From a virus: DNA of 22,609 nt. Shown piece by piece: positions 966-21,088 of this stretch. Below the pieces are notes generated by a model. That model was given only the letters and a program-made list of their open reading frames with translations. It searched no databases and was not told the DNA's origin. The position numbers and the translations under genes are program-made. Every line of letters begins with the position of its first letter. Position 1 is the stretch's first letter. The DNA lies in IMG/VR virus record IMGVR_UViG_3300044678_001381, positions 1 to 22,609 of that record. One strand, written 5' to 3'.

Positions 966-2842
966 TTAAGCTGAACGCAACGCGATTCCTCCGACCGCAT
1001 CAGCGATACTCTGCCGCTGAATGGTTGCCAAAGAATGTTGTGATGCCAAAGGGCACCGAGACGGCTGGAATGCCATTCAGCCTAGCTGCATTCCCGCACG
1101 TTGATTCTGTGCTTGATGCGTTCGACGATCCAAAGGTCCGGCAAATTGTTTTGCAGTGGGCGTCTCGACTTGGCAAAACCACGACATGCCTGTCATTGAT
1201 GGCCAAAGTTGCTGGCACAAATCCACGCAACATGATGTTTGCAGGCCCAACAAAGGACGCGGCCGGCAGAGTCATTGGCTCGAGGCTTTACCCGATCCTG
1301 ACTTCGGCGGAGGGAGTTCGCCAGCAACTTCCACCAGAGGCACGTCGAAGCAAGCTCCACGTTAAGCTGGAGTCCTGCCAGATCTTCGTCGGCTGGTCCG
1401 GATCCGAAACAAGCCTGGCTGACGTGGGAGCCTTCTTTGGCCATGCGTCAGAGATTGACAAGTGGGACGATTCAGCTTCAAAGGAAGGCGACTCGCTGAA
1501 ACTGTTCGTCAACAGATTTAAAGGCTTTCCCGATCACAAAATAATTTTTGAGTCAACGCCGACGATTGCAGGCCGAAGCCGCATTGAAAAGAAGATGACT
1601 GAAAGCAATCAGCATCGACGGTACGTTCCGTGCCCACACTGCGGAGAGTTTCAAGTTTTGATTCAAGGGATTGAAGGCCTTCCGGGCGGCTTCGACTGGG
1701 AACGCGACAGCAAAGGCAATTCAAACGCTGACATCGCTCTGCAGACGGCTCACTATGTCTGCAAGTTCTGCCACAAAAAAATCGAGAACCATCACAGGAC
1801 TGTCATGCTTCGCGCCGGGGTTTGGGTTCCGAGCGGCTGCACGATAACCGCTGACGGAAAGATTCACGGCAAAGCACTCAAAGACGGATCGGATGTCGTC
1901 GGGTTTGGGCCATTGGCGTCGTGGTACGCATTGACTGAGACATGGGGCAACTTTGCTCGATTGTGGATTCAGGCACAGAAGCGGCCTCGGGACCTGCAGG
2001 ACGTTGTGAACTCCTACAAGGGCGAGACGTGGGCAATTCGCAAGAGCAAAAGCACCCCGGAAAAGGTTGGCATTAAGCTTCGCACCGACATTCCACGGCG
2101 AATGCTTCCAGATTGGACGCGGCTCGTGACTGTCACGATTGACCAACAGCGATCAGACGGCGGCTTTAGGCTGTGGGTCTGCTTGGCTCACGGTGTCAAT
2201 CGTGCCGCGCATGTCGTCGATTACGGGCTTTGCCAGCAATTGGAAGAGGTTTGGGACCGCCATATCCGATCACCATATCAGCACGAGGACGGTGGCAATC
2301 CGATGATGCCGCACGCAGCGGCTGCCGACTCGGGCTGGGACACCAAAAAAACATACGACTTTTGTAACAACCACAACGGAATGCTGCCGCTGAAAGGCAG
2401 TTCGGGCGAAATCAGCGGCGGACTTCCTTACAAAGTTTCTGAGGTTGAATCAGGCCAGTACAAAGGACAGTCACTTTTTTCGGTCAACACAGATTTCTGG
2501 GAAACTGATCTTCAGGCAAGACTTGATGAGCGGGATCCGGGAGAAGACGAATCGCTTTCGATCTGTGCCGGGGCTGAAAACGACTTCGAATTCTTGGAGC
2601 AACTGTGCAACGCAACACTCACAGACCGAGTTGACGGCCGAGGACAGGCCAAGCTTGTTTGGATTAAAAAAGACGAATCACTCCCTAACGACTACCGCGA
2701 CGCGGTTAGATATGGGCTCTGCCTTGCTCACGCATTCATCGACGAAAACGGATTCCCGCCCCGGAGCAACGTCTGGACGCAATCAAAAACAGTTGTCAAT
2801 CGTGGAACAGACAGGCCAGATGGGAGAGCGTGGAATGAGTAA
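962..2842 (+). CDS. Phage terminase large subunit, GpA family
   Basis: This 626-aa protein is the packaging motor: an ATPase that drives DNA into the prohead, plus the nuclease that cuts the concatemer. A GpA-type deviant Walker A lies at about residues 66-74 (WASRLGKTT), a Walker B-like acidic motif at 162-169 (ASEIDKWD) and a coupling motif at 196-201 (FESTPT). A zinc ribbon typical of many GpA proteins follows, with Cys224/Cys227 (CPHC) and Cys267/Cys270 (CKFC). The C-terminal nuclease fold shows D394 (VTID) and D456 (AADSGWDT), with a late acidic DYRDAVRYG near 590. Length is normal for the family (about 600-650). GGAGG (947-951) precedes the start, which overlaps the previous stop. GpA terminases usually go with lambda-type portals, as found here, so cos-type ends are likely. 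Confidence 0.96.
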   Translation: MIKLNATRFLRPHQRYSAAEWLPKNVVMPKGTETAGMPFSLAAFPHVDSVLDAFDDPKVRQIVLQWASRLGKTTTCLSLMAKVAGTNPRNMMFAGPTKDAAGRVIGSRLYPILTSAEGVRQQLPPEARRSKLHVKLESCQIFVGWSGSETSLADVGAFFGHASEIDKWDDSASKEGDSLKLFVNRFKGFPDHKIIFESTPTIAGRSRIEKKMTESNQHRRYVPCPHCGEFQVLIQGIEGLPGGFDWERDSKGNSNADIALQTAHYVCKFCHKKIENHHRTVMLRAGVWVPSGCTITADGKIHGKALKDGSDVVGFGPLASWYALTETWGNFARLWIQAQKRPRDLQDVVNSYKGETWAIRKSKSTPEKVGIKLRTDIPRRMLPDWTRLVTVTIDQQRSDGGFRLWVCLAHGVNRAAHVVDYGLCQQLEEVWDRHIRSPYQHEDGGNPMMPHAAAADSGWDTKKTYDFCNNHNGMLPLKGSSGEISGGLPYKVSEVESGQYKGQSLFSVNTDFWETDLQARLDERDPGEDESLSICAGAENDFEFLEQLCNATLTDRVDGRGQAKLVWIKKDESLPNDYRDAVRYGLCLAHAFIDENGFPPRSNVWTQSKTVVNRGTDRPDGRAWNE

Positions 2843-3110
2843 AAAGCAGCAGCCTGAAAAGCCCGTCCAGAAGCCTATTGAGAAACCACAGACGCGAGTG
2901 ATTGAAGAATATCGCCACTGTCCAATTTGCTGGTCTGGAAACGGCGGTTATGGCTCCGCCTATTCCACACATGGGCGGACTCGTTACTACAAGTGCGACA
3001 AGTCGACAAGTGCAGAGCGTGGGCCATGCGGCCACACTTGGACGGTTGAAGTGAAGCTTGAGGTGATCAAGGTCGAGCATCGAATCGTGAAAATGGACGG
3101 AGAACGGTAA
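2835..3110 (+). CDS. Four-cysteine zinc-finger protein, Ogr/Delta-like pattern
   Basis: This 91-aa basic protein has a Lys/Pro/Gln-rich N-terminus (1-20) and one zinc finger: Cys29-x2-Cys32, then Cys54 and Cys65 (CPIC...YYKC...CGHTW). The layout, including Tyr before the third Cys and a Cys-Gly followed by an aromatic-Thr, resembles the Ogr/Delta/Com class of small phage zinc fingers. Ogr and Delta activate late transcription, while Com regulates Mu mom translation. That likeness is by pattern only, and the spacing differs (10 residues between the last two cysteines). The ATG at 2835 overlaps the terminase stop by 8 nt and follows GGGAGAG (2822-2828). A longer in-frame reading inside the terminase gene has no support. 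It could instead act in packaging beside the terminase, whose own zinc ribbon is similar in style. Confidence 0.8.
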   Translation: MSKKQQPEKPVQKPIEKPQTRVIEEYRHCPICWSGNGGYGSAYSTHGRTRYYKCDKSTSAERGPCGHTWTVEVKLEVIKVEHRIVKMDGER

Positions 3111-3386: not shown

Positions 3387-5071
3387 GCATCATTGACTCC
3401 ATCGTCGGCATCTTCTCACCATCTGCACAGCTTCGACGCATGGAAGCACGGGCCACGATTCAGCAGGTCAATAAACTGCTTGGAACAGCAAAAGGCCCTT
3501 ACGCAGCGGCTAATCTGAATCGATTGAATGCACTTCGCGGCATTGTTCAGAAAGAAAACGAAGTCAGCGGAAGCCGAATCGAATTCCTTCGCGCTCAGTC
3601 GTGGGATCTGTACCGCGACAATCCAAGCTGTCGAAAAATCGTCCGATCCTTGGAGGCCAAGGTGATCGGCAAGGGGATGCACCCTGAATCGCTCGCAATG
3701 TTCGCTGATGGTACGCCAAACGTGCCATTTCGTGAACGTGCAATGCAGCTGTGGGAGCAATTACAGAGCGGATTCGATGCCCGCGGTATGCCTGGCAAGG
3801 GCGGTTTGACGATGGGATGCCAGCAAAGATTGGCATTCCGGTCGGTGATTTTGTCCGGTGACACGCTTTATCGAATCAAGCCAATCAGTTCTGCGGAGCA
3901 ATTGCGTCGGAATCTTCCGATTGCTGTCGTTTTGCAGTTGGTCGACACCTGCAGGTTGGCGAGTGAATCAGAAATTCTTCGAGCGTCACTGCCAGAGGAT
4001 CATCGAGTCTTTCGCGGGATCGAACTTAACGCGAACGATGAGCGTATTGCGTATTGGGTGAAAAACAATCTAGTGTCAGATGCGGCAGCAGCCCCGGCAA
4101 CGGCAACACGAATCCCGATCGACAAGATGGGGCATCTTTACATTGAGGAAGACATTGACGAGCTTCGCGGCGTGCCGTGGTTTTCGTCTGCAATCCTTCG
4201 CGCACGTCGAACCGATGATCTCGAATACAACGTACTCACGGCTTCAGCGATGGCTTCGTGCATGGTTGCGGCCTACAGCAAGCCAACCGGCGCGACGAAG
4301 CTTGGGCTAAATCAGGGAACCGACTACAACTCAACATCTGCGGACGGGACAGACCTGACAGACAGCGACGGCAACACGATCAACAAGATTCAGCCGGGCA
4401 TGGTTGTCAATAAAGGCAAAGACGGATCGTTTGAGCTGTTGTCACCCAATCAGCCAAACATGAACCCGGAAGCGTTCGTTCAGCATCTCCAGCGGGGAAC
4501 GGCGGCAGCGTTGCCAGGCACAAAAGCCAGCACCGTAACCGGCGATTACCGCAATAGTTCATTCAGCTCTGAGCGATCGGCAGACAACGATTGTTGGCCA
4601 GAAATTCAGATCGTGCAGGAGTGGTTCGCGTCACATTATTGCCAGCCAATCTGGGAAACGATTCTTCGAACCGCAGTCTTTGAGGGCTACTTCGATGGCA
4701 TCGTGTCGGCTGAAGAGTTCCAAAGCAATCCGGAAATGTTTTCAGCAGCCAACTGGCAGGGGCCAGTCGCGCTTTCCATCAATCCAAAAGACGACGTCAA
4801 GGCGGCAGCCGATCGAATTCACGCCGGATTATCTTCGCTTCAGATGGAATGTGCCAAGATCAATGTGAACTGGCGAGATGTCTTGAATGATGTCGCAGAG
4901 CTGTATGAAGTGGCCGAGGCTAAAGGCATTCCGACAGAAGTCATCAATAACATCATGGGCATTGATGCTCAGGATCAAATTGCTGTTCAGCAGATGGAAG
5001 ACTCGAGCGAAGAGCAGCCGCCAGAAGACGTGATTGAAGACGATTCACTGGAGGAAGCTAGCAATGCGTAA
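3383..5071 (+). CDS. Phage portal protein, lambda gpB family
   Basis: This 562-aa protein is the portal, a dodecameric ring at one head vertex through which DNA enters and leaves and on which the neck assembles. Lambda-type portal signatures include DLYRDNPSCRKIVRSL...KVIGKGM (about 75-99), matching the family pattern in which residues near the N-terminus lead into a Val-Ile-Gly-x-Gly block, and RGVPWFSSAIL (262-272) before a long helix. The C-terminal 30 residues are very acidic. The ATG at 3383 has GGGAG (3368-3372) in front and overlaps the previous stop; an upstream in-frame ATG at 3350 would add 11 residues inside the gpW-like gene and is less likely. Its stop overlaps the capsid gene start. 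Length is normal for lambda-like portals (about 500-560). Confidence 0.95.
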   Translation: MSIIDSIVGIFSPSAQLRRMEARATIQQVNKLLGTAKGPYAAANLNRLNALRGIVQKENEVSGSRIEFLRAQSWDLYRDNPSCRKIVRSLEAKVIGKGMHPESLAMFADGTPNVPFRERAMQLWEQLQSGFDARGMPGKGGLTMGCQQRLAFRSVILSGDTLYRIKPISSAEQLRRNLPIAVVLQLVDTCRLASESEILRASLPEDHRVFRGIELNANDERIAYWVKNNLVSDAAAAPATATRIPIDKMGHLYIEEDIDELRGVPWFSSAILRARRTDDLEYNVLTASAMASCMVAAYSKPTGATKLGLNQGTDYNSTSADGTDLTDSDGNTINKIQPGMVVNKGKDGSFELLSPNQPNMNPEAFVQHLQRGTAAALPGTKASTVTGDYRNSSFSSERSADNDCWPEIQIVQEWFASHYCQPIWETILRTAVFEGYFDGIVSAEEFQSNPEMFSAANWQGPVALSINPKDDVKAAADRIHAGLSSLQMECAKINVNWRDVLNDVAELYEVAEAKGIPTEVINNIMGIDAQDQIAVQQMEDSSEEQPPEDVIEDDSLEEASNA

Positions 5072-7268
5072 ACGCAGCCAGCGTGATCAGGCAACAGCCG
5101 ACACGAACTATCGATCACTTGCAGTCCGAGCGGCGACATTTAACGAAGAAGGCCGCAGCGTCGAAGCAGTCATCAGCACGGAACAGCCTGTCGACATGCC
5201 CGACTGGGGTCGGCAATCGATGGTTCCGGAAGTTCTTGTGCCGTCCGGTGCGGAGTTCCCATCAAATCGACAGGTTCCGTTTCTTGATTCACATCAACGC
5301 CGATCGGTCAAAGATCAGCTTGGCTCAGCCCGTGAAATCAAGATCAACGGGAACGAAATCACAGCAACGCTGGTGTTCCGCAAAAGCAAAGAATCAGACG
5401 ACGCACTTGGCGGCGTGCGAGACGGGCATATCACCGACGTATCGGTCGGATATGACGTTTTGAAACGCCAATACATCGAATCAGGGGCGAAGAAAACAAT
5501 TGGAACTCGGACCTATGAAGGCCCGGTAAATGTTGTAACGAAGTGGCGGCTCCGCGAAGTCTCGTTGACTCCGATCGGGGCAGATGATCAGGCAAAGTTG
5601 CGTGGGCTGGACCCCGCAAAGGTCCGTTTCAAGTCCTCAGAAGAACAGGAAGATTTCACGATGAACGCAGAACTCCGCGCTTTGCTGCTGTCAAAAGGCA
5701 TGTCAGCAGATCTCACCGACGAACAGGCTCAGCGATGGCTGATTGATAACGCTGCAAAGCTCAGCGAAGTCAAGAAAGAAGAAAAGAAGGAAGAACGCAG
5801 CCAGCCACAGAACACGTTGCCATCTGCGACGGATCTCGCCAAGCTGGTTGCCGATGCAACCCGTCAGGCAATTGCCGATCAGAACGCAGTTCGCAAGGCA
5901 TTCGAAGTTGACGTTCGCGAACTCTGCGAACTTTCAGACGTTCCGGGCGAAATCGAAGCCTGCCGCGCGTTGGAAGATCTGGCAGCAGTTCGAAAACACA
6001 TCAAGGACGTGAAGGCAAAGACCGCTGAACACGTTCCGTACGGTGCAAGCGTGCGACACGTCAGCAGCGGAACAGAGCGACTGGAAGTAGATTTGCGGTC
6101 AGCCCTAACCATGACTGCGTGCCGTTCTGCTTTGAATGGCGATGAAGCCAAGCTCGAAAAGTATTTCCCGGCAGCCCAGCGAAGCAAGGCGGCTGACAAT
6201 TTCCGCCACGCAACGCTGTTCGACATGGCATCGGAATACGTTCGATCACGCGGAATTCAGACGTTGGGGCTGACTCGCGATCAAATTGCCATTTGTGCGA
6301 TGTTTGGACCGGAGAAGGCTGGCATTCGTGCTGCTGCAGGCGGAGCCGCTTATCACGGATCAGGTTCATTCAGCAACCTGACTTTGGATGCCGTCAACAA
6401 GTCCATGATGATTGGCTATCAGGAAGTTCCGGCCACATGGCGAGGGCCGATGAAGCAGGGTCAGTCAGCGACAGACTTTAAGAACATTCACCGGATGCAG
6501 CTTGGAGCCATTCCAAATCTGCCAGTGTGGAATGATTCAGTTCGTCCAGAAATGGCAAGCATGGCGGACGGCAAGCAGACGTACGCGGTTGAATGCCGTT
6601 CGATCGGCATTGACTTTGGGTACAAACTGATCGTCAACGACGATATGTCGGCACTGACTTCGACGCCGATGAAATTGGGTGATGCTGCAGCCCGAACAGT
6701 AAACACTGTGGCGTGGGCACAGGTCACGAGCAACCCGACGATGCGAGATGCTCAGGCGTTGTTCCTCGAAACGCCTGCCGGTCTGCGATTCCGCAAGAAC
6801 CTGACGACTGGTTCAGCAACTCCAACATCAGCCACAGTCGGAGCGATGAAGGCCCTGATGCGATTGATGCGAGGCGAGAACACGCCAGAAGGCACCGAAT
6901 CGGCTGACATTCTAAACCTGACTCCAGCCTACCTGGTTGTTCCGGCAACGCTCGAAACCACTGCGGAAGTGCTGATCAATTCGATTTACGATCCAGCTTC
7001 TTCAGGGGCCGGAACATTCAACGCGACTCGCTCGCTGCGTCTGGTCGTTGAGCCGTTGCTCGATGCCGCATCAACGAAGGCGTTCTATCTGTTCGCAGAA
7101 CCAACGCGGGTTGAAACCGTCGAGGTCACGTTCCTTGCCGGTCAGGAAACTCCACAGGTCCGCGAAGTCCGTGACGAGCACACATTGGCCAGCACTTACT
7201 ACGTGCTGCAATCAGTGGCGGCAAAAGCACTCGACCATCGAGGCATCCAGAAGCACAACGGCGAATAG
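5064..7268 (+). CDS. Prohead protease-major capsid protein fusion
   Basis: This 734-aa protein joins an HK97-type prohead protease to a major capsid protein. The protease half (about 1-190) shows the U35/S78 signatures: His77 in FLDSH, Ser127 in ITDVSVGY, and the trailing block REVSLTPIGAD (164-174). A charged Lys/Glu/Gln linker (about 225-275) could serve as a scaffolding delta-domain. The capsid half follows to the C-terminus and ends in a family-like ASTYYVLQSVAAKALD. Such fusions are known as a named class, so fusion alone is not new. The ATG at 5064 overlaps the portal stop and follows GGAGG (5051-5055); an upstream ATG at 5034 has less support. An in-frame ATG at 5661 (Met200) sits 8 nt after AGGAAG and could start a capsid-only product. 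The protease is expected to cut itself away during maturation. Confidence 0.93.
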   Translation: MRKRSQRDQATADTNYRSLAVRAATFNEEGRSVEAVISTEQPVDMPDWGRQSMVPEVLVPSGAEFPSNRQVPFLDSHQRRSVKDQLGSAREIKINGNEITATLVFRKSKESDDALGGVRDGHITDVSVGYDVLKRQYIESGAKKTIGTRTYEGPVNVVTKWRLREVSLTPIGADDQAKLRGLDPAKVRFKSSEEQEDFTMNAELRALLLSKGMSADLTDEQAQRWLIDNAAKLSEVKKEEKKEERSQPQNTLPSATDLAKLVADATRQAIADQNAVRKAFEVDVRELCELSDVPGEIEACRALEDLAAVRKHIKDVKAKTAEHVPYGASVRHVSSGTERLEVDLRSALTMTACRSALNGDEAKLEKYFPAAQRSKAADNFRHATLFDMASEYVRSRGIQTLGLTRDQIAICAMFGPEKAGIRAAAGGAAYHGSGSFSNLTLDAVNKSMMIGYQEVPATWRGPMKQGQSATDFKNIHRMQLGAIPNLPVWNDSVRPEMASMADGKQTYAVECRSIGIDFGYKLIVNDDMSALTSTPMKLGDAAARTVNTVAWAQVTSNPTMRDAQALFLETPAGLRFRKNLTTGSATPTSATVGAMKALMRLMRGENTPEGTESADILNLTPAYLVVPATLETTAEVLINSIYDPASSGAGTFNATRSLRLVVEPLLDAASTKAFYLFAEPTRVETVEVTFLAGQETPQVREVRDEHTLASTYYVLQSVAAKALDHRGIQKHNGE

Positions 7269-10376: not shown

Positions 10377-11042
10377 GTGCATTTTCTGACATTCATTCCG
10401 GACTGCTCACCAAATCAGATCGAGGACCGCGCAAAAGCTGCCGGGCTGCTCGATCTGCTTGGCGGCCACAACGCTGTCGTGTGGAATGAAGGACCGGGCG
10501 GATTGTCCGGGGTTGTGCTTGCACACATGCAGGCGATCGGATCGCGGCATGACTACTCACCAAAGGAGCAGGACTGGGTTGCGTCTGTTGCTAAAGTCGA
10601 CGGAAAGCCGCTTTACTATGTCGGATTTTGGACCAAGGAAGACCCGAAGGAAAACGAACTCCGCAGGCATTACACGCAGGCGGGACCGCTGACTCAATTT
10701 GGAACGGCAAAGTGGAAGCTACCGACACCCGACACGGTCGACGCTCGAGCTGTCTATGCTGACGATGGTTCAATGCGATGGGAAACTATCCGCCAGTTCT
10801 CGTGGATGTGCGACGAGGCCAAAGTTATCCGCGACGAATATCTGCAGGAGTTCGGAGTTCGGGACATGGTGTTCCGCGTCGAACCGTCAGTACAGATCAA
10901 CTGGTTGCTGAAACTGCTGCGGGTCAATTACAGACTGCTGCCCGAAGTCGCTGTGCGTCTCGACATGTGGACCGGCAAAGATCACATCATGGATACGTTC
11001 CTCTCGACGCTCGGACTGCAGAGAGGCAAATCAGATGGCTGA
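10377..11042 (+). CDS. Conserved tail-module protein of unknown function
   Basis: I recognise no named family in this 221-aa protein. It is a mixed alpha-beta, tryptophan-rich protein. One block reads PLYYVGFWTKEDPKENEL (residues 77-94), followed by W-K-L-P-T-P-D and an acidic turn (YADDGSMRWE). It lies between the tube candidate and the tape measure, where siphoviruses usually encode one or two tail assembly chaperones, often joined by a frameshift (lambda G/GT). Here there is a single reading frame, and no slippery site or second overlapping frame was noticed. The start is GTG at 10377, with GAGAGG (10364-10369) ideally spaced. It overlaps the tape measure start by 8 nt. A chaperone role is only a contextual guess. 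Confidence 0.6.
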   Translation: MHFLTFIPDCSPNQIEDRAKAAGLLDLLGGHNAVVWNEGPGGLSGVVLAHMQAIGSRHDYSPKEQDWVASVAKVDGKPLYYVGFWTKEDPKENELRRHYTQAGPLTQFGTAKWKLPTPDTVDARAVYADDGSMRWETIRQFSWMCDEAKVIRDEYLQEFGVRDMVFRVEPSVQINWLLKLLRVNYRLLPEVAVRLDMWTGKDHIMDTFLSTLGLQRGKSDG

Positions 11043-13020
11043 TGAAATCATCACAGTGGAGTGGATCGCGACGGCACAGAGTATGCTGACGACGATCCAG
11101 AAGATTGACGCGAAAATTGAGCGTCAAGAAAAGATGATGCAGAAGCTGAGCGATACCTCCAAAAAAGGGGCGGACGCCGCGGCTGGTTCATTCAACAAAC
11201 TAGAGCAGGAGCTCAAGCAAAACGAGGCGGCTCTTGGAAATCTGCAAATCGGAACAAAAGCGTTTGCTGAGCAAAAAAAGAAAGTCGACGAGCTGCGAGC
11301 ATCGTTGAACGGCGCAAAGCAGGCGATGGCCAGCAATCAGTCTGTTCTTGGATCACTGGGAACCACAGCCATCACAAAGATGGCAGGGCTTGCGGCAGGC
11401 ATGGCCGGTTTCAAGATGGTTTTGGAAGCGGCAATCGCTGAACTTGAAAAGGCACAGCAAGTCAGGTTGAAAGCATCAGAGACGATGCAATCCGTTGAGG
11501 GAGCCATCGCGGAAATGGCCCTGAACATTGGTGCGGATAACGTCGGAAAAGCTCGGGGGATGATTGAGCGAAACGCACCACAGATGGGAGTCACTCAAGA
11601 AGGTCTGGCCAGCATGTTAGCGGCTGGCATTTCCGGCGGAGCAAAAGACCTCGACGAGGCGTTGAAGCTGTCGTCGGCAACGCTCAAGCTTACGGCTGGC
11701 GACGCTCAGAAGGCCATTCCGATTATGTCCGGAATGCTGACGATGGCAGCCACGACCGGCAATCGAGATTTCGAATCTACTCTTGGGCAGCTCAGCCAGT
11801 TTCAGGAGGCGGCACGCGGCGAAGATTTGTCTGTTTCCATAAACAACATGGCAACAGCAATGGCGGCGGCCAATACTAGAGGCGAACGAATTCAGGCACT
11901 CGGCGGGGAACGCACGCTTGAGATGGCGTCAGTTATGTCGCAACTGCTGCAGGACAAGGATATGTCCGTCACTGGTACAACGCTGCGGCAAATGTTTTCC
12001 AAAATGGATGCGTTCATTCCGAAGACATCGGCAACGCTCGACGACGGAACCAAATCAAAATTATCTCCGCAAGATGTCGAAGCATTTTCAAAGCTCGGCA
12101 CGATGGACGATCGCGTCCAGGCGATGCGGCAGAATCCGGAGATTGCAAAGCAGTTCCTTAGCACAATTGAGGAGAATCAGGGCAAGTCTGCCGTCCGTCA
12201 AATTGTAAAGGGTGATCAGAAGGCACTCGACCTTGAGGCAGCAGCAGCCGCAATCGTCACTTCGCAGGAAGGCGCAAAGAAGGACTTTGACGCGCTAGTG
12301 ACAGTCATTGCAGAAAACACTAAGAACTTGCAAGCCGCGAATAAATCCAAAGCTGCAGATCAGGTTACTGATCCAAAGCTGGCACTGGAAGGAAGCATCA
12401 TTGAAGCGTTCAACCGTGCCGTTGATGGCATGACGAATGCTTCAGGGCTGGATTCCTTTACGCGAGCCGATGCAAAAAATGCACTTTCGGTGCGAATGGC
12501 ATCGGGACAGGACGCAGCTACAGCGGCAACTACGACACTGGAAGAACTAAAGCAAAGAGAAACGGCGTTTGGTTTTCTACCTGTCGGCGGCAGCGTATCC
12601 GGTGAGGATCAGGCAAAGCTTGATGCACAGATTGCTGTGATTCAGGAGCTGGCGGGCAGTGTTAAAACGGTTGAAGAGAAGCGAGCCGCAGACCGTGTAA
12701 ACCAGTTTGTGCAGCAGAAGGACGCGAACAAGGACGGCAAAATCGGATTGTCTGAAATGAAAGACGTTCTTTCGGAGGATATGGACCAGAAAAACTTAGA
12801 CGCTATGCGAGGTATCCCCCGAGCAGAGGGTCAGCAGTTTGTGACAGTGGCTCAACTGCAAAAAGCTTTGATTGATTCCGGAGGAATATCAGAACTCATC
12901 CAATTGCAACGCGAAAACAATGAAATCCTAAAAGGCCAAGCACCTGCCAATAAGCAGCCGGCCCCACCACAGAAACAACGGCCACAAGTTGCACCACTAC
13001 CAGCGGCCACAGCACCATGA
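11035..13020 (+). CDS. Tail tape measure protein with an EF-hand
   Basis: This 661-aa protein sets tail length and is ejected with the DNA. Residues about 15-110 are Lys/Glu/Gln/Ala-rich with coiled-coil character, followed by a small hydrophobic helix (about 112-135, ITKMAGLAAGMAGFKMVLEA) and long Ala-rich helices, as usual for tape measures. By the usual 0.15 nm per residue it would give a tail near 100 nm, an inference from family behaviour. Residues 563-574 (DANKDGKIGLSE) are a textbook EF-hand calcium loop with the expected upstream helix. A degenerate second copy may follow near 600-620. The C-terminus is Pro/Gln/Ala-rich (about 634-661). GAGAGG precedes the ATG at 11035, which overlaps the previous gene by 8 nt. 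No lysozyme or peptidase domain is visible. Confidence 0.9.
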   Translation: MADEIITVEWIATAQSMLTTIQKIDAKIERQEKMMQKLSDTSKKGADAAAGSFNKLEQELKQNEAALGNLQIGTKAFAEQKKKVDELRASLNGAKQAMASNQSVLGSLGTTAITKMAGLAAGMAGFKMVLEAAIAELEKAQQVRLKASETMQSVEGAIAEMALNIGADNVGKARGMIERNAPQMGVTQEGLASMLAAGISGGAKDLDEALKLSSATLKLTAGDAQKAIPIMSGMLTMAATTGNRDFESTLGQLSQFQEAARGEDLSVSINNMATAMAAANTRGERIQALGGERTLEMASVMSQLLQDKDMSVTGTTLRQMFSKMDAFIPKTSATLDDGTKSKLSPQDVEAFSKLGTMDDRVQAMRQNPEIAKQFLSTIEENQGKSAVRQIVKGDQKALDLEAAAAAIVTSQEGAKKDFDALVTVIAENTKNLQAANKSKAADQVTDPKLALEGSIIEAFNRAVDGMTNASGLDSFTRADAKNALSVRMASGQDAATAATTTLEELKQRETAFGFLPVGGSVSGEDQAKLDAQIAVIQELAGSVKTVEEKRAADRVNQFVQQKDANKDGKIGLSEMKDVLSEDMDQKNLDAMRGIPRAEGQQFVTVAQLQKALIDSGGISELIQLQRENNEILKGQAPANKQPAPPQKQRPQVAPLPAATAP

Positions 13021-13415
13021 CAATAAAGCTGACAGATAAAGATAACGTCGATGTGATCGATACCGGTTCGAATCTTCACGGCAGCATCAAGGCAGGCCCG
13101 TACGACTACGCGCGGGTCACGCAACGATGGTTTGGAACTACAGGTGAAATGATTCTGACAGGAGGTTTAAGCGGCAGAGAATTAACGTGCTGGCTTTGGC
13201 TCACTGGCTATGGAACACATGACCTGCTTCATGCAGATATGGTTTTGTTAGGTGACGCTGCAAACAAATCCGGAACGCTGGATGTGAACGGGCTGGATTT
13301 TCTAAACGTAATTTTCGACGGTTTCACACCAGAGGAAGATCCGTGGTATGACGGATCCGGCGTAAATGGTTGGCAAGTCAAAGGCATAATGAAATTCAGA
13401 CAGGTGAAATCATGA
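13017..13415 (+). CDS. Small tail-module protein (unknown)
   Basis: This 132-aa protein is not assigned to a family. It is beta-rich, with conspicuous aromatic positions (ELTCWLWLTGYGTHDLLHADMVLL, about 55-78) and an acidic Gly-containing turn (FDGFTPEEDPWYDGSG) before a final strand (WQVKGIMKFRQV). This pattern could fit a small distal tail or hub-adjacent protein that caps the tube after the tape measure. It starts at an ATGA overlap with the tape measure stop and ends in an ATGA overlap with the next gene, so translation is coupled. No signal peptide or membrane segment is seen. Function is inferred from position only. Confidence 0.65.
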   Translation: MTIKLTDKDNVDVIDTGSNLHGSIKAGPYDYARVTQRWFGTTGEMILTGGLSGRELTCWLWLTGYGTHDLLHADMVLLGDAANKSGTLDVNGLDFLNVIFDGFTPEEDPWYDGSGVNGWQVKGIMKFRQVKS

Positions 13416-13967: not shown

Positions 13968-15844
13968 TGGGTTTCGACGTAATCAACACTGACGACAGTT
14001 TCTTCACGGAGTATGAGGAGTTTACCGTTCTGCTCGGGCCAGAAGACGGAACAACGCCAGCACCGGCGGATGTGTTCGAGAATGTCTACTGCTCCATTGC
14101 CGTTCAGTCTGCAGGTAGCCGGATCGATTACGCAGAATTGACGTGGGCCTTGTCAGAGTCACTTGAAAACCGAGATCAGCCAGCGGGGTTCGCCCGGGTG
14201 GTTCAGGTTGAACTTCCGGATGTGGACGATACCCGGATCCATCTTGGCGACTACATCAGCGAGGGATTCCGGATCGATCAGGAAGGCGAATCGCTGACGG
14301 CTACCAGTCAATTGCGGCCGTATCACTTCGGCGTGCCCGTCACCGGCTATCGCGTTTGGGACGCGATCGATTCAGCCGAACGAATGATTGCGGATCATAT
14401 CGTTTTCAATCCGACGATCGATGACAAGACACTCGGCAATCGGTCAGACAAGTATCGGACTGGGACGGGGTTTACGGGGCGACTCTGGACACATCCGGAA
14501 CTGGCAGATTCTTTGGTCGGAGAAACTTACCAAGGCCAAACGCGGAGCGAGTGGACGTTGTACGAATGCGTTCACTCTCTTTGCGAACTGCTGAATCCTG
14601 ATGAGGAATTTATTGCGCGTCCTGTAACTGTTGATCTTGATGTTCTCAATGACGCACCGCCGATTCGGAATGTGTCTGTAGAAATGGGCACGTACCTTCC
14701 GCAGGCACTCGACAAGATCCTGATTCCGCTGGGATACAATCACTGGATTGACTACACGCAGACAAAACCGCAAATCGTGTTTTTCAAGATTGGATCTGGG
14801 GACGAAAAGGAATTGCTATTTCCGGCAGTGGATAGCGTTCTGGATCCTGCTGAAGCTAATGTCAATCAGCTTGCCGTAAACAACTCAATTGGGGACAGCT
14901 TTAATCAGGTCACGGTTTACGGGGATTATGAAGAAGCCGAAGTCACGATCAATCTATATCCGGGATGGCCTGCCGACGCTGATGCGATAGATGAAACGGA
15001 TCTGGCGAAAGATGGGGCGAGCTACGAAACCAACGTGAGCGCATGGCGGCTTTGGATAGCAAACGAAGCAGGTGATATTGATCCAGCCATCGCAAGGCTG
15101 GGCCAGACTCCAACAGTCCCTGATTTTGGGGATGTGTTTACAATCGCAACTCCGCACCGCAGGCCAATGGGAGAGCCCCTAACATACCAGCAAAACGACG
15201 AGTACAGCGACGAAAAAAGGCAGCGAAGACCGATCGTTGTGGAATACTCGGATGATGGTGGATACACATGGCTTCCAGAAGAATCTGATTGGACTATCAA
15301 GCTGTGCCCGGATCAAATCGGGATTTTCTTTGATGGCAAAAACATACCAACACAACTGTACGCTGCGGGTTCTCTCGCTCGTGTCAGAATTACAGGAACG
15401 ATCCGAGGCGATTATCGCTGCCGCGGATACGCTGCGAAGCAATCATGGGCGGTTAATGCCAGAACTGTTGAGCAGATTTTGCTGATGCCGGAAAAATTTC
15501 AGTATCGCTATCGGCAAGAAACCGGGGGGTTTGCATCTGTTCTTTTTGGCGCTGCTGATGAAAAAGATGATCGCGGAGAGGCAGAAGACTACGCGGAAAA
15601 GGTTCGCGATCAAAATCACTATGCCGACGTTGATTGCGAGTTCAGATTGCCGGGCTGGCATATTGAATACAAGATCGGAGATCTGATCACTAAAGTCGCA
15701 GGGCGTGAAATCAGTTGCGACGGTGCGCCAGAGTCAGCCCCAGTTAGGCGGTATGTGCAGGTCGTTGAGCGGCGGTTCGAGATGTCCAAAAGTGGCGGGC
15801 CTTCGACAGTGCTGATTGTCGATCGAGGAGTCGTACCAATATGA
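13967..15844 (+). CDS. Putative tail hub or baseplate-like protein
   Basis: This 625-aa protein is the largest tail-tip candidate. The N-terminal third is beta-rich (VYCSIAVQSAGSRIDYAELTW, about 41-61) and resembles the opening strands of gp27/gpD-like hubs (lambda gpJ or distal hub region), which seat the tube and carry receptor-binding parts. A middle region has the block DSFNQVTVYGDYEEAEVTINLYP (about 309-331). The C-terminus contains a helix-strand unit (FRLPGWHIEYKIGDLI) and ends VLIVDRGVVPI. The hub label is a fold-level inference from size, order after the tape measure and strand pattern, not from a verified motif. The start is GTG at 13967 with GGAGG (13958-13962) in front, a strong site that is very close to the codon. 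Confidence 0.6.
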   Translation: MGFDVINTDDSFFTEYEEFTVLLGPEDGTTPAPADVFENVYCSIAVQSAGSRIDYAELTWALSESLENRDQPAGFARVVQVELPDVDDTRIHLGDYISEGFRIDQEGESLTATSQLRPYHFGVPVTGYRVWDAIDSAERMIADHIVFNPTIDDKTLGNRSDKYRTGTGFTGRLWTHPELADSLVGETYQGQTRSEWTLYECVHSLCELLNPDEEFIARPVTVDLDVLNDAPPIRNVSVEMGTYLPQALDKILIPLGYNHWIDYTQTKPQIVFFKIGSGDEKELLFPAVDSVLDPAEANVNQLAVNNSIGDSFNQVTVYGDYEEAEVTINLYPGWPADADAIDETDLAKDGASYETNVSAWRLWIANEAGDIDPAIARLGQTPTVPDFGDVFTIATPHRRPMGEPLTYQQNDEYSDEKRQRRPIVVEYSDDGGYTWLPEESDWTIKLCPDQIGIFFDGKNIPTQLYAAGSLARVRITGTIRGDYRCRGYAAKQSWAVNARTVEQILLMPEKFQYRYRQETGGFASVLFGAADEKDDRGEAEDYAEKVRDQNHYADVDCEFRLPGWHIEYKIGDLITKVAGREISCDGAPESAPVRRYVQVVERRFEMSKSGGPSTVLIVDRGVVPI

Positions 15845-16218
15845 CGCGGCGAGAGTTTAAGCTACTTCATGCTGGCGGCGGCTCAGGCGGCGTACTGACG
15901 GTTCGATTCCGGATCGTCGCGGCTACTGAATACTGTGCTGAGTGTTATGCAACCGCGCGTGTGATTTCTGGTCCACCGGATGTCACGAATCCAGACACTC
16001 TGCCGGGAACGACATTCGACTATGACGCCCAGTACTACACAATCAAGGCCTACGACATGGGCGAAGGCTGGTTAAACTATCCCCCCGAAGAATTACTCAA
16101 CATGATCGGGCACGCAACATGGCTGCGATCCTATGAAGACGGTCCCTGTGCCGAGATTCCGTCATTGCACTGGGAGATCATTGATATGCAAGACCCTGAA
16201 GAAGAGGTCTGCGAATGA
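15841..16218 (+). CDS. Tail-tip associated protein (unknown)
   Basis: This 125-aa protein has a Gly-rich start (HAGGGSGGVL, residues 10-19) followed by a strand, a CAEC motif (Cys32, Cys35) and an acidic C-terminus (MQDPEEEVCE). The centre has many Tyr and Trp residues (DYDAQYYTIKAYDMGEGWLNY, near 60-80). I know no family for it. It is coupled by ATGA to the hub-like gene upstream and by ATGA to the cysteine-rich gene downstream. The CAEC pair and its neighbour's many cysteines suggest the two act together at the tail tip, which is inference. Confidence 0.6.
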   Translation: MTRREFKLLHAGGGSGGVLTVRFRIVAATEYCAECYATARVISGPPDVTNPDTLPGTTFDYDAQYYTIKAYDMGEGWLNYPPEELLNMIGHATWLRSYEDGPCAEIPSLHWEIIDMQDPEEEVCE

Positions 16219-17804
16219 CATGCCCAGCGTGTTTTATCGTTGATGGCTGCGGCGGGATCGGCCACGGTGCGATTGAGAATCATTGCTGCCGGTGCATTCC
16301 TAATCGTGTCTGCGTTTCACTGTCGACCGACACTGACGTTTGCGCCTCAGACAAATGGGTGGATGAAACATCTATTCTTTCATCGATTGAAGCTCAGTGG
16401 ATCAGCCCAGTTGATGGAACATGCGGACGAAGGTTCACGGGCACCCTAACGTGCGGCGTAATGAACATTGATTTCACAATCGAGTTCTATCGCGACATTT
16501 ACACAAACATCTGCTACATGGCTCTGGAGTCTGACGCGCTTGGGTACACATACAATCCGCTAGGTGATGATCTTCGCGTTAAGCTCGCACTGGGTGGAGA
16601 AGAGAACGACGCAGCGGTCAAACGTGCTGAGTGCCGGGCGATGGAGTTCGACTTTCCGATCGACATCAACTACGGAACTGGAACTATTAGGCTGAGGCCA
16701 GCACCGTACGTGGCCGCAATTAAGCGTCGCCCTGGCATTCACTGCATGTTCGAGCGCGTATGTATTACGGTTTTTGATGGATACGAAGAAACCGCTCATC
16801 ACATCTGTGCAAATTCGGAAACCGAAGGTGTCACGAGCTGGCACTTTCTGAAAGATGACGACGCTGGTAAGCCTGTGACAATCACAGTTGATGATCATGA
16901 CGCGACGGGCGACGGAGCAACGACGCTGAGCCTTGTGTCGTGGCTAAATCCGACGGTGGACCCAATTGTAAAAGAAGCCGAATGCCCAGACATGGTCGCG
17001 CAATGGGATCTGCCTGGCGGTGCATGGATCAGAATTCGAGGCGACAAACTGAATAAATGCACAGACTGCAAATGCTACTGTGAATGTCTGTGCGTGCTGT
17101 ATGTGGAGGATGAGTTAACGCAGGCCCGTGGCAAAGCGTGCCGCGTCATTTCCTACGACGGATGTTCGGAGTATTGGGAGATCACTCTGCTTGGCCGATT
17201 GCTCAGGTTTTACCTGCGATGTCTAGGGTGCGAAAACCCGTCGACCTATCTAGTGCTGGAAGTGGAAGAGGGTGCCAGTATTGTCGGTGGTGTAGCGGAA
17301 AAAACCGTCTTGTGCCCCGATCAGTTAGAGGCGGTTTGGTCGGTCAATTATCCGGGTGATGTGCTCGGGAATATCAGCGTTGCCTGTGCGGAGTGCGGTG
17401 AGGAATGTACGCTCGATGAACTTTCCGTCACTTCGCCGTGTTGCCCAGAAACGCGTGTTCCGGTGAATCTATACGCGACGGTAACAGCAGGCCAACCTGA
17501 GTATCCAGTTGGCACCGTAATTCCATTGGTCAAGTCGGGACCGGATGAAGACCCGTGCTGGACGGGGTCAATCACCGTAACAGTCTCCGGCCAACCGTGT
17601 TTGATCCGCATTTCACTGGCATGTTTCGGGGCTGGCAACGATGCTCACTGGTATATCGCGCCGCTGGCATGCTCGGGACTTAGCACATCTGCGACTCAGG
17701 CAACGCTCGTTTCATGTGATCCGTTAATCATTACAGCAACCATCAATCCGGGCTGTTGCGAAAACTCACCGAACTGTTCAATGACAGTGGAGATAACGGC
17801 ATGA
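16215..17804 (+). CDS. Cysteine-rich four-module tail protein
   Basis: This 529-aa protein contains 40 cysteines (about 7.6%), exceptional for a phage structural protein. Four divergent modules can be lined up by eye. Each opens with a Cys cluster and a short strand: RCIPNRVCVSL (26-36), HCMFERVCITV (176-186), CYCECLCVLYV (287-297) and CCPETRVPVNL (409-419). Each closes with a Cys-led strand pair: AECRAMEFDF, AECPDMVAQWDLPGGAW, LCPDQLEAVW and SCDPLIITA. The fourth ends CCENSPNC. Composition is otherwise beta-rich, like a chain of Ig-like or fibre domains. Cysteines may make disulfides or bind metal; the sequence does not decide. Position after the hub makes a tail-tip or fibre role likely. 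GAAGAGG (16200-16206) precedes the ATG, which overlaps the previous stop. No signal peptide is seen. Confidence 0.75.
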   Translation: MTCPACFIVDGCGGIGHGAIENHCCRCIPNRVCVSLSTDTDVCASDKWVDETSILSSIEAQWISPVDGTCGRRFTGTLTCGVMNIDFTIEFYRDIYTNICYMALESDALGYTYNPLGDDLRVKLALGGEENDAAVKRAECRAMEFDFPIDINYGTGTIRLRPAPYVAAIKRRPGIHCMFERVCITVFDGYEETAHHICANSETEGVTSWHFLKDDDAGKPVTITVDDHDATGDGATTLSLVSWLNPTVDPIVKEAECPDMVAQWDLPGGAWIRIRGDKLNKCTDCKCYCECLCVLYVEDELTQARGKACRVISYDGCSEYWEITLLGRLLRFYLRCLGCENPSTYLVLEVEEGASIVGGVAEKTVLCPDQLEAVWSVNYPGDVLGNISVACAECGEECTLDELSVTSPCCPETRVPVNLYATVTAGQPEYPVGTVIPLVKSGPDEDPCWTGSITVTVSGQPCLIRISLACFGAGNDAHWYIAPLACSGLSTSATQATLVSCDPLIITATINPGCCENSPNCSMTVEITA

Positions 17805-19678
17805 TTCTGCGTGCAGAATGCGAGGGAAAGGTCGGTCGGTCGGCAGCAATCTGTAATGGTACGTCTGATCTGACACTTCACGAGACAAATAAATATCGGG
17901 CATTATGGAGACTCGATCCAATACCAGAATCGGAGTGGACGGGCGTTAAAAAGGATCGCCCTGCAAAGAAGCCAAAAGTCGCAACGCATTCGGAAAAAGT
18001 GGGCACTGCTTTAGCCAAGCGGATTGAAGGACTTGCGACAATCAAGGAGGGGAGCGGATGCAATTGCGAAATGCTATCATCGAAGATGAACGAATGGGGG
18101 ATCGCTGGTTGCGAGCGAGAGCGGGCTTACATTGTTGAGCAGTTACTGAAGAACAGCGAAGTTCTGGACGTTTCATTGTCGAAGGCTTCAATCGCTTACG
18201 TCAAAGGCGCAGGAATTGTCCAGGCGACCGGAACAGCGATTAAGCTGGCGTCTGATTGGTGGACTGGAAAAAACGTTGAGCATGAGGCGAAAGTCTCTGG
18301 CGCGAATTGGTTGCTTGATGCGGCGATAGAGGATGTAAAAAAAAAGAAACTGAAGCCCATTGCAACCTGCTCTAAGCCGTCGCGCATATCAATACCGCTC
18401 TCAAAAGAACAGCGGGAGTTGCATAGAAGAGCGATCTCGTCAAATCCGCCGAAGCCTGATCCATTTGATAATCCGGTCATTCATTTTGGTGCTCACCTGT
18501 GGCCGATCCGTGGTAACTGGGAATGGCACGTCGATCGATGGAATGAGGTTGCAGAGAGAATCGAAGGTCGCTGTGTCGTCGGAATTTCTGACTGCAGAGA
18601 TTGCGGTATCGTCTCGATAGACGAGGTGAGAGAAAGACTGTCTGATCGGTTCGAAATCGTCGTAGTGCAAAACTCGAAAGAGGGCGAGAATCCTACGTTT
18701 AGGCATCTTCAGCAGATGATTCCGCATGGTGATAATGACATTCTGATCTATGCACACGGCAAGGGCGTGCGGCCACACACAGCAGCCTCAGAATCCGTGC
18801 GAGTGTGGACGGAAATCATGTACGAAACGGTGGTGTATAATCACAGCGAAATCATTCGAAGGATGGCGGAAGGCTATCGCTCATTCGGTTCGTTTCGGAC
18901 TTTTGGCGATGCGCCGTTAAGCCCGCGACATCGATGGCATTATAGCGGAACATTCTTTGCCGTTCGGGCGAAGTATCTGACCGGTGAGGTGAAGCCGGAA
19001 TACGGTGGCGTCGAAGCGTGGTGTGGCGATCACATTCCGGCGTCTCTGTCATGGTGTGAATTCGCTGACTCGGCGGAACTGAAAGCTGGGTACGATCGCG
19101 ACAGAATGTATCCGATGCGTGTCGATGCTCAAATGCAATGGGAAGTGGACCGGATTGGTGGTCCGCGATGCGAGCAGCACAAGCGTGAGCTGGATTGGTT
19201 TCTTGGCATTATCGATAAAACATTCGGTGAGTACGTTAACCGCTATGGGATGATATTTCCCGTGCATGTTCTCGTCATAGGTTCGCGCAATGGCGGGCTG
19301 GAATATCAACTGCAGCAGCGAGGACACACAACCGTGTCGATCGACATCGCACCGCAGCCAGATAACGCAGTCGAGAATTTAATCTTTGGCAGCAGTGCCG
19401 ATCTTGAAGTGCAACGCAAAGCACGCGATTGCGGCCCTTTTGATGTGATCTTCATTGACGGGGATCATTCATACGCAGGTGTGAAATCAGACTTCGAATT
19501 CGCCCTGACGCTCAATGCGAGAATCATCGCTCTGCATGATATTGCGGATGCAGTGAAACATCGCCGTGAGGGCTGCGAAGTCGATCGACTTTGGAAAGAA
19601 ATTAAGGCCACCTATAACACCAGTGAAAAGATTGTTGGATGCGGTTGGGGAGGCATCGGAATAGTTCACCGATCATAG
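17801..19678 (+). CDS. Glycosyltransferase-SAM methyltransferase fusion
   Basis: This 625-aa protein has three parts. Residues 1-185 include a Cys motif GCNCEMLSSKMNEWGIAGC (86-104) and charged helices, with no named family. Residues about 225-420 look like a glycosyltransferase: DNDILIYAHGKGVRPH (311-326) and HYSGTFFAVRAKYL (380-393) resemble the YxHxKG and HxSGxFxxxxxxYL motifs of polysaccharide-type transferases. Residues about 488-625 are a class I methyltransferase: motif I VLVIGSRNGG (490-499), SIDIAP (513-518), FDVIFIDGDHSYAGVKSDF (547-565) and ALHDI (577-581), as in the Methyltransf_24 group. It probably builds or caps a glycan and methylates it, either on virion proteins or on the host surface. 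It ends the tail operon and overlaps the previous stop (ATGA). A start at 17756 would lie inside the previous gene. Confidence 0.85.
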   Translation: MILRAECEGKVGRSAAICNGTSDLTLHETNKYRALWRLDPIPESEWTGVKKDRPAKKPKVATHSEKVGTALAKRIEGLATIKEGSGCNCEMLSSKMNEWGIAGCERERAYIVEQLLKNSEVLDVSLSKASIAYVKGAGIVQATGTAIKLASDWWTGKNVEHEAKVSGANWLLDAAIEDVKKKKLKPIATCSKPSRISIPLSKEQRELHRRAISSNPPKPDPFDNPVIHFGAHLWPIRGNWEWHVDRWNEVAERIEGRCVVGISDCRDCGIVSIDEVRERLSDRFEIVVVQNSKEGENPTFRHLQQMIPHGDNDILIYAHGKGVRPHTAASESVRVWTEIMYETVVYNHSEIIRRMAEGYRSFGSFRTFGDAPLSPRHRWHYSGTFFAVRAKYLTGEVKPEYGGVEAWCGDHIPASLSWCEFADSAELKAGYDRDRMYPMRVDAQMQWEVDRIGGPRCEQHKRELDWFLGIIDKTFGEYVNRYGMIFPVHVLVIGSRNGGLEYQLQQRGHTTVSIDIAPQPDNAVENLIFGSSADLEVQRKARDCGPFDVIFIDGDHSYAGVKSDFEFALTLNARIIALHDIADAVKHRREGCEVDRLWKEIKATYNTSEKIVGCGWGGIGIVHRS

Positions 19679-19703
19679 TTACGGCCGCGAGCGTAATGCA
19701 CTC

Positions 19704-19756
19704 GCAAAAACGAAGCATGGGAGGGCCGCACTCGATCGGGTGTGGCTCGCTTCGTT
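19704..19756 (-). terminator. Rho-independent terminator of the integrase operon (convergent)
   Basis: AACGAAGC (19709-19716) pairs with GCTTCGTT (19749-19756), and an inner stem pairs GCCGCAC with GTGTGGC (one G:U). Read on the minus strand the stem is followed by TTTTT (19705-19709 on the plus strand as AAAAA). It also overlaps the stop codon of the 102-aa gene. In the plus direction the T run is poor (TTATTG), so it would be only a weak barrier to the tail operon, which ends 30 nt before. A smaller inverted repeat TTACG/CGTAA (from 19679) lies just after the tail operon. Confidence 0.75.
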
Positions 19757-20198: not shown

Positions 20199-21074
20199 CT
20201 AGCCGGCCGCCAGCCGTTCCGCCATGCTGCCGAGCAGGTTTTGTGCGGACGGATCGAGACGGCGGTAAGAGGTCAGGAACGAGTCTTCCGGCGACGCCGC
20301 AGCCCCAAACGCTGCCGGAACTCTTACGCGGTCCATTGCGGCGGTGAGAACGCTCAGCGGGTCGATATAGTGGTCCATGATTCCAAGGCCGCAGCCATGA
20401 ATTATCCGGCCTGCAACAGCGTTTGCCTGACTCCATGCGGTGACTGATGCCTGCCTCAGATTCTTTGGCCCCCATCGCATCACACCGGCCGCAGTGCAAG
20501 CTGCCGCAATTTCCGTCCTGATAGACTTTCGAGCGTAGTCAGACACCGCGCGGAATCGATAGCTACCATCAGCTAAAATCGGAAGCAGCCACGGCGGCAT
20601 TGGAATTTCGTGCTGCTTTCCAGTCTTCGATGCCTGTTGCTCAATCACTCGAGGCAGCGTGCGATTATTGTGGCTCAGCAGCCATCGCATCGCGTCCGAC
20701 TGTCGCAACGCGGACCAATACGCAAACGCGATGAAGGCTCGAAGCGATGGAGAGCAGTGCGGCCAGATAGCGTCAATTGAGTCAATACTGACGGGCCGCG
20801 GCCTCACTTTCGGTGCGATGAGCTTTCGGCCTTTCTGTGGCATTATGCCAGTGACAGCGGTGACGACCGTTATCACATCGGCAATTGTCGATTCGATTGT
20901 CCGGACTGCGAGCTGTGTAGCGAGTAGCTTGACTCGCAGTTGGTTGAGATGCTCGGTAGTGACCTGATCAGCGGCTATATCACCAATGTGTCGTGCAAAT
21001 CGATTGGCTGAATACAAAGGCTCACGGCGTTTAATGTTGCGGGTGGCGAGGTATTGGCGGGCTTCGTCGATCAT
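20199..21074 (-). CDS. Tyrosine-family site-specific integrase
   Basis: This 291-aa recombinase probably integrates the phage at the tRNA-Val site 113 nt upstream. The catalytic set can be read: Arg124 (SALRQSDAM), Lys150 (ASKTGK), Arg207 in KNLRQAS, His226 (IIHG) and the nucleophile Tyr236 in MDHYID. The usual His of the H-x-x-R box is replaced by Lys204, a substitution found in some family members. Residues about 1-75 are the core/arm-binding SAM-like region. The length is short but normal for compact phage integrases. ATG at 21074 (GGTG upstream) is preferred; a GTG at 21083 would add three residues. A partial repressor-like half-site (21089-21104) lies just upstream, and the gene reads toward the tail operon and ends in a shared terminator region. 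Confidence 0.93.
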   Translation of the reverse strand: MIDEARQYLATRNIKRREPLYSANRFARHIGDIAADQVTTEHLNQLRVKLLATQLAVRTIESTIADVITVVTAVTGIMPQKGRKLIAPKVRPRPVSIDSIDAIWPHCSPSLRAFIAFAYWSALRQSDAMRWLLSHNNRTLPRVIEQQASKTGKQHEIPMPPWLLPILADGSYRFRAVSDYARKSIRTEIAAACTAAGVMRWGPKNLRQASVTAWSQANAVAGRIIHGCGLGIMDHYIDPLSVLTAAMDRVRVPAAFGAAASPEDSFLTSYRRLDPSAQNLLGSMAERLAAG

Positions 21075-21088
21075 TGTTTTCACCGATG

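Follow-up and report, generated by a model that had tools for sequence, protein, structure and literature searches.

What does a protein with 40 cysteines do at the end of a phage tail gene block? The window analysed here, a virus record of 22.6 kb (22,609 nt), contains terminase and portal genes, a fused head protease/major head protein, tail genes up to position 15844 and an integrase gene on the minus strand at 20199-21083. The preliminary description had pointed to a 529-aa open reading frame with 40 Cys in the tail-tip position; the ORF and the count of exactly 40 Cys were reproduced, and the tail-end location was backed by the neighbouring genes and by relatives. Its ATG start overlaps the stop of the preceding 125-aa gene and its 3' end overlaps the following 625-aa gene. 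Cys accounts for 7.56% of its residues, versus 1.17% across a set of 16 other phage genes and 0.67% when only the remaining tail genes are counted (binomial probability of at least 40 Cys among 529 residues, 4.8e-20). The closest relative is encoded on an IMG/VR contig, L002, in which both flanking genes are also present. At an overall identity of 44% between the two proteins (alignment A1), 38 of the 40 Cys are identical, with Trp the next best kept residue (60%), which shows that the Cys pattern is under selection. Elsewhere in the window, a single 744-aa ORF (5034-7268; PHROG 4523, E 3.6e-112) combines head maturation protease and major head protein, and the region between the terminase and portal genes encodes a small protein in which the Cys pattern CPIC...C...C is zinc-ribbon-like (2831-3110, within ORF 2445-3110). 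The tape-measure-like protein (11035-13020), named like the J-like protein by gene position, has no Cys; one of its loops, DANKDGKIGLSEM, resembles an EF-hand, with a Pfam match short of the cutoff (E 0.015).

Table 1. Features of the tail-end cassette and its surroundings in the window.
Feature	Position	Strand	Basis
625-aa tail protein 5' of the cassette, in J-like position; final backbone gene common to L029, L030, L031 and L033	13967..15844	+	tblastn
Adaptor gene, 125 aa: short N-terminal anchor (MTRREF..), Gly-rich linker, cassette-specific domain	15841..16218	+	C-part shared with L002 and L005; L057 homologues
Exchanged cassette	15859..19742	+	blastn against near relative L029, no nucleotide match
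40-Cys protein, 529 aa	16215..17804	+	ORF and Cys count, conservation, composition
Module 1, aa 23-167, CCxCIPxRVCV start	16281..16715	+	aligned with L002, L033, L068, L057; similarity to module 3 beyond Cys-fixed shuffles
Module 2, aa 174-277, Cys-poorer	16734..17045	+	alignment, profile comparison
Module 3, aa 285-394, CKCYCECLC cluster at start	17067..17396	+	alignment, profile comparison
Module 4, aa 407-529, family CC..P..L.A..W.G..C..CDP..CC..	17433..17801	+	profile, AlphaFold2
Cassette enzyme, 625 aa: Cys-containing N-terminal domain, putative glycan-enzyme-like middle, Methyltransf_24-like end	17801..19678	+	identity to L068 and L057 genes

Four repeated modules had been proposed for this protein. 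Four stretches are indeed recognisable, each opened by a Cys cluster and closed by a Cys-led strand pair, but the repeat found backing, and that weak, for modules 1 to 3 only. In profile comparisons, the likeness between modules 1 and 3 was reached by none of 300 Cys-fixed shuffles, while the likenesses between modules 1 and 2 (21 of 300 shuffles reached the score) and between modules 2 and 3 (17 of 300) were marginal, and module 4 resembled none of the other three. All hhalign probabilities between modules were below 10%. With these values and the distinctness of module 4 in the shuffle test, a strong four-fold internal repeat was dropped: profile self-comparison did not bear out the clean repeat, modules 1 to 3 look weakly repeated in sequence, and module 4 is a separate domain family of its own. 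The relatives in L033 and L057 apparently have three modules each. The AlphaFold2 model of the whole protein was too unreliable to use (pLDDT 43.7), its strand pattern being nearly all beta, but module 4 alone, modelled from five sequences, reached pLDDT 68.7 and pTM 0.67, with eight strands and almost no helix, and was predicted as an eight-strand barrel. The models point to a mostly beta protein. For the module 4 model, Foldseek gave a best E of 0.057 and the VIA comparison a best Z of 6.7 (avidin 5.4); these likenesses, to lipocalin, avidin and designed barrels, were weak and stayed within background, and Foldseek against viral models returned no match.

The strongest evidence comes from the way in which the region around this gene is exchanged among relatives. 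In blastn against L029, the window is 75% identical up to 15858 and 71% identical again from 19743, with no match between. The corresponding slot in L029 holds one 831-aa protein that starts with the MTRREF motif, as the adaptor does; L030 encodes an 813-aa protein with the RREF anchor motif at its start, and L031 likewise has a single large protein. The slot proteins of L029 (9636-12131) and L030 (9633-12074) fell into no Pfam or PHROG family. Between L032 and L033, a 9.7-kb stretch of 97.5% identity breaks off about 50 nt into the adaptor gene, and a DNA match returns only 3' of the Cys gene. The backbones of L033 and L065 do not align, and a 79% match runs only from the adaptor point onward. 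Breakpoints fall 18-50 nt into the adaptor gene, and the anchor motifs are specific to each backbone. In these alignments the adaptor, the Cys protein and the enzyme behave as a unit swapped whole between near-identical phages. The cassette or a paralogous version was found on at least three unrelated tail backbones (window/L002/L033, L065 and L068): L068 combines an L033-type Cys protein with a related enzyme, L005, whose backbone resembles that of L068, has the window-type adaptor only, and the L065 cassette lies two genes 3' of a verified tape-measure protein (PHROG E 3.8e-54).

The neighbouring genes were characterized by the same comparisons. The upstream tail protein is 81, 74, 48 and 44% identical to its counterparts in L029, L030, L031 and L033 (tblastn) and has no significant Pfam or PHROG family. 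The C-part of the adaptor is 70% identical in L002 and in L005, which has a different backbone. The cassette enzyme aligns over 525 aa, at 36% identity, with the product of the gene that follows the Cys gene in L068 (E 3e-100), and at 26% identity with its counterpart in a chromosomal locus, L057 (E 5e-12), which likewise follows a Cys gene and has the same central domain. Its end resembles Methyltransf_24 (E 1e-4, slightly short of the cutoff), and its middle, which has no Pfam match, may be glycan-enzyme-like, judging from a motif and the neighbours. In L002, a frameshift at 6854-6983, either a sequencing error or real, splits the tail gene 5' of the cassette, which is intact in the near-identical L033 (710 aa). 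Three genes 3' of the enzyme, L068 encodes a Laminin_G_3 (ConA-like lectin) protein (12320-13093; E 6e-22), possibly another surface-binding part.

Searches with the 529-aa protein found no match in Pfam, NCBIfam or PDB sequences (Pfam-A at E<=1) or among 50,697 phage records, and nothing significant in PHROGs (best phrog_8236, E 0.041); the homologues of this protein, and the adaptor itself, likewise gave nothing significant in Pfam, PHROGs, NCBIfam and PDB sequences. Two pattern-based genome scans found no relatives, a profile of the window and L002 proteins had no match across 392 Planctomycetota genomes, and the first homologue surfaced only with the L033 protein as query. The window and L002 profile did reach two chromosomal proteins, L056 (E 3e-5) and L059 (E 2e-3), through module 4, with scores exceeding all 5820 Cys-fixed decoys (best decoy 0.16). 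A wider profile (A7), which includes sequences contributed by genome G270, detected the domain in 11 genomes out of 170 from a single Planctomycetota order; no match came from 145 Verrucomicrobiota genomes or from 150 genomes of the class to which G002 (a Phycisphaera MAG) belongs, and no module-4 type protein was found in plasmids. Module 4 also occurs as single-domain proteins in Planctomycetota chromosomes. By these profile matches, the 40-Cys protein belongs to an undescribed family whose module 4 is shared by phages and planctomycete chromosomes, and the cassette suggests that the window's virus is probably a phage of Planctomycetota. The planctomycete link suggested earlier is upheld, and the homologue search proposed with it did yield relatives in phages and in planctomycete chromosomes. 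As for the suggested new fibre or adhesin fold, the protein is undescribed, mostly beta by prediction and adhesin-like, with no significant family match.

On the G270 chromosome (L057), the adaptor and the Cys protein follow each other in this order twice, the enzyme being confirmed only after copy one and an RHS protein following the Cys protein in copy two. The two Cys proteins contain 46 or 50 Cys, and adaptor homologues lie immediately 5' of both (E 2.5e-8 and 7.6e-8, with a profile built without L057). The window and L002 profile on its own misses L057, and the link to this locus comes from the A7 profile (7e-7), the adaptor (2.5e-8) and the enzyme (5e-12); the A9 matches to L057 are by construction. 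G425, by contrast, has a prophage-like stretch with a head protein and with terminase- and portal-like genes recognised by eye only. The unit is thus shared by phages and bacterial loci. L057 is surrounded by glycosyltransferases, a sugar aminotransferase and a 2129-aa RHS protein, and RHS proteins were present at all six chromosomal loci tested (L035, L055, L056, L057, L061 and L062); no phage structural family was matched around L057 in the stretches read. Small Cys-rich proteins (CxRHxCxKTxHW or DUF6171-like; L035 6815-11220, L055 7456-7893, L057 7775-8992) recur among the Cys-domain genes, glycosyltransferases and RHS proteins of planctomycete chromosomes.

Retention of an anchor with exchange of the distal part is typical behaviour of receptor-binding modules. 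Since the cassette follows this pattern, with a constant N-terminal anchor and an exchanged distal part in close relatives, we favour, on balance, the reading that 16215-17804 encodes the chief receptor-binding protein of the distal tail, as part of an exchangeable cassette for host recognition in phages of Planctomycetota. Its position is distal, after the J-like gene in the window and after the tape measure in L065, and the stronger evidence for the role comes from cassette exchange together with chromosomal sharing. The adaptor would dock the cassette to the tail tip through its backbone-specific N-terminal anchor, its cassette-specific domain lying after the Gly-rich linker. The Cys-rich protein would consist of compact beta domains in a row, stabilised by conserved Cys, which would be thiol or metal-bound in the cytoplasm and disulfide or metal-bound in the released virion, and it is these domains that would touch the cell surface. 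Attaching or modifying sugars, on the Cys protein or on the host surface, is the probable task of the downstream enzyme. Counting against this reading, the predicted fold of module 4 matches no known receptor-binding fold (best Foldseek E 0.057, VIA Z up to 6.7, within background). Plain tail fibres do not usually come with an enzyme as constant partner, and a chromosomal cassette with no recognised phage structural genes nearby means that the function need not be tail-bound.

The alternatives concern chemistry as well as role. The Cys clusters could be sites for zinc or a similar metal, so that the modules would be metal-stabilised and not disulfide-locked, a reading of the chemistry and not of the role that we regard as a real, if tentative, contender. 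CxxC/CxC-rich clusters open the modules, such as CTDCKCYCECLC at aa 282-293 and CCCCKCLIESGTGCCTC in L057, synthesis is cytoplasmic with no visible signal peptide, and proteins encoded nearby in the chromosomes have weak matches to DUF6171, also a Cys-rich family; several Cys of the module 3 cluster are, however, not kept beyond the window/L002 pair, conserved His partners are few, and no metal-protein family was matched. As to role, the cassette might be a surface-modification or lysogenic-conversion block outside the virion: the lysogen or infected cell would produce the Cys protein, the enzyme would modify it, and the host surface would be changed as a result, with superinfection exclusion as one example. 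The glycan-enzyme-like and methyltransferase-like domains of the partner enzyme in phages and chromosome, the glycosyltransferases, sugar aminotransferase and RHS proteins around the chromosomal copies and the integrase of the window would fit such a block, which we nevertheless hold unlikely: the breakpoint inside the adaptor leaves the backbone-specific N-terminus in place, starts and stops overlap with tail genes, L029, L030 and L031 have a single large protein in the same slot, and a crude hydropathy scan found no signal-like hydrophobic segment in the 529-aa protein. Disulfide-based attachment of the tail protein to the planctomycete envelope is possible, and the protein, sharing a Cys-rich module with host surface loci, might attach by joining a disulfide-stabilised protein envelope through thiol-disulfide exchange or mimicry of an envelope component; we consider this specific version improbable. 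That the protein serves other cassette products as a tail chaperone or as a scaffold for their assembly, as the fixed neighbours of the Cys gene could suggest, is very improbable: the window shows no further large distal structural protein that might be its client, and relatives carry one large protein in its stead.

For the receptor-binding reading, the most likely role of an exchangeable, Cys-packed tail protein is that of a tough part gripping the host surface. No description of a planctomycete phage turned up in our search of the literature. If the reading is true, the cassette is a concrete, swappable candidate for host recognition on these unusual envelopes, its domain family is an undescribed one common to phages and planctomycete chromosomes, and near-identical phages differing mainly in the cassette (L032-like versus L033-like) provide a natural experiment.

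Several known systems bear comparison. The eight strands of the module 4 model recall calycin-like meander barrels such as lipocalin and avidin, with weak matches at Z 5-6.7 and Foldseek E above 0.05 and no sequence similarity; the likeness may be just a common strand arrangement. Planctomycetes have Cys-rich cell wall proteins with a YTV domain, whereas the 40-Cys protein has no Pfam match and no visible signal peptide, and neither it nor its chromosomal homologues matched the YTV domain (Pfam-A, E<=1, the YTV model assumed present). The chromosomal RHS/YD-repeat loci of Planctomycetota share the module-4 domain, and in L057 also the adaptor, enzyme and glycosyltransferases, but differ in that no phage structural genes were recognised in the stretches read and that their Cys domains are usually single. 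Phage tail fibre and receptor-binding protein cassettes likewise lie at the distal end of the tail block, keep a backbone-specific N-terminal anchor and exchange the part after the linker en bloc among near-identical phages. Unlike in those cassettes, the exchange here covers three genes, for a small adaptor, the 40-Cys beta protein and an enzyme, with no known fibre fold or family: the kind of system is known, and the protein family that builds it is undescribed.
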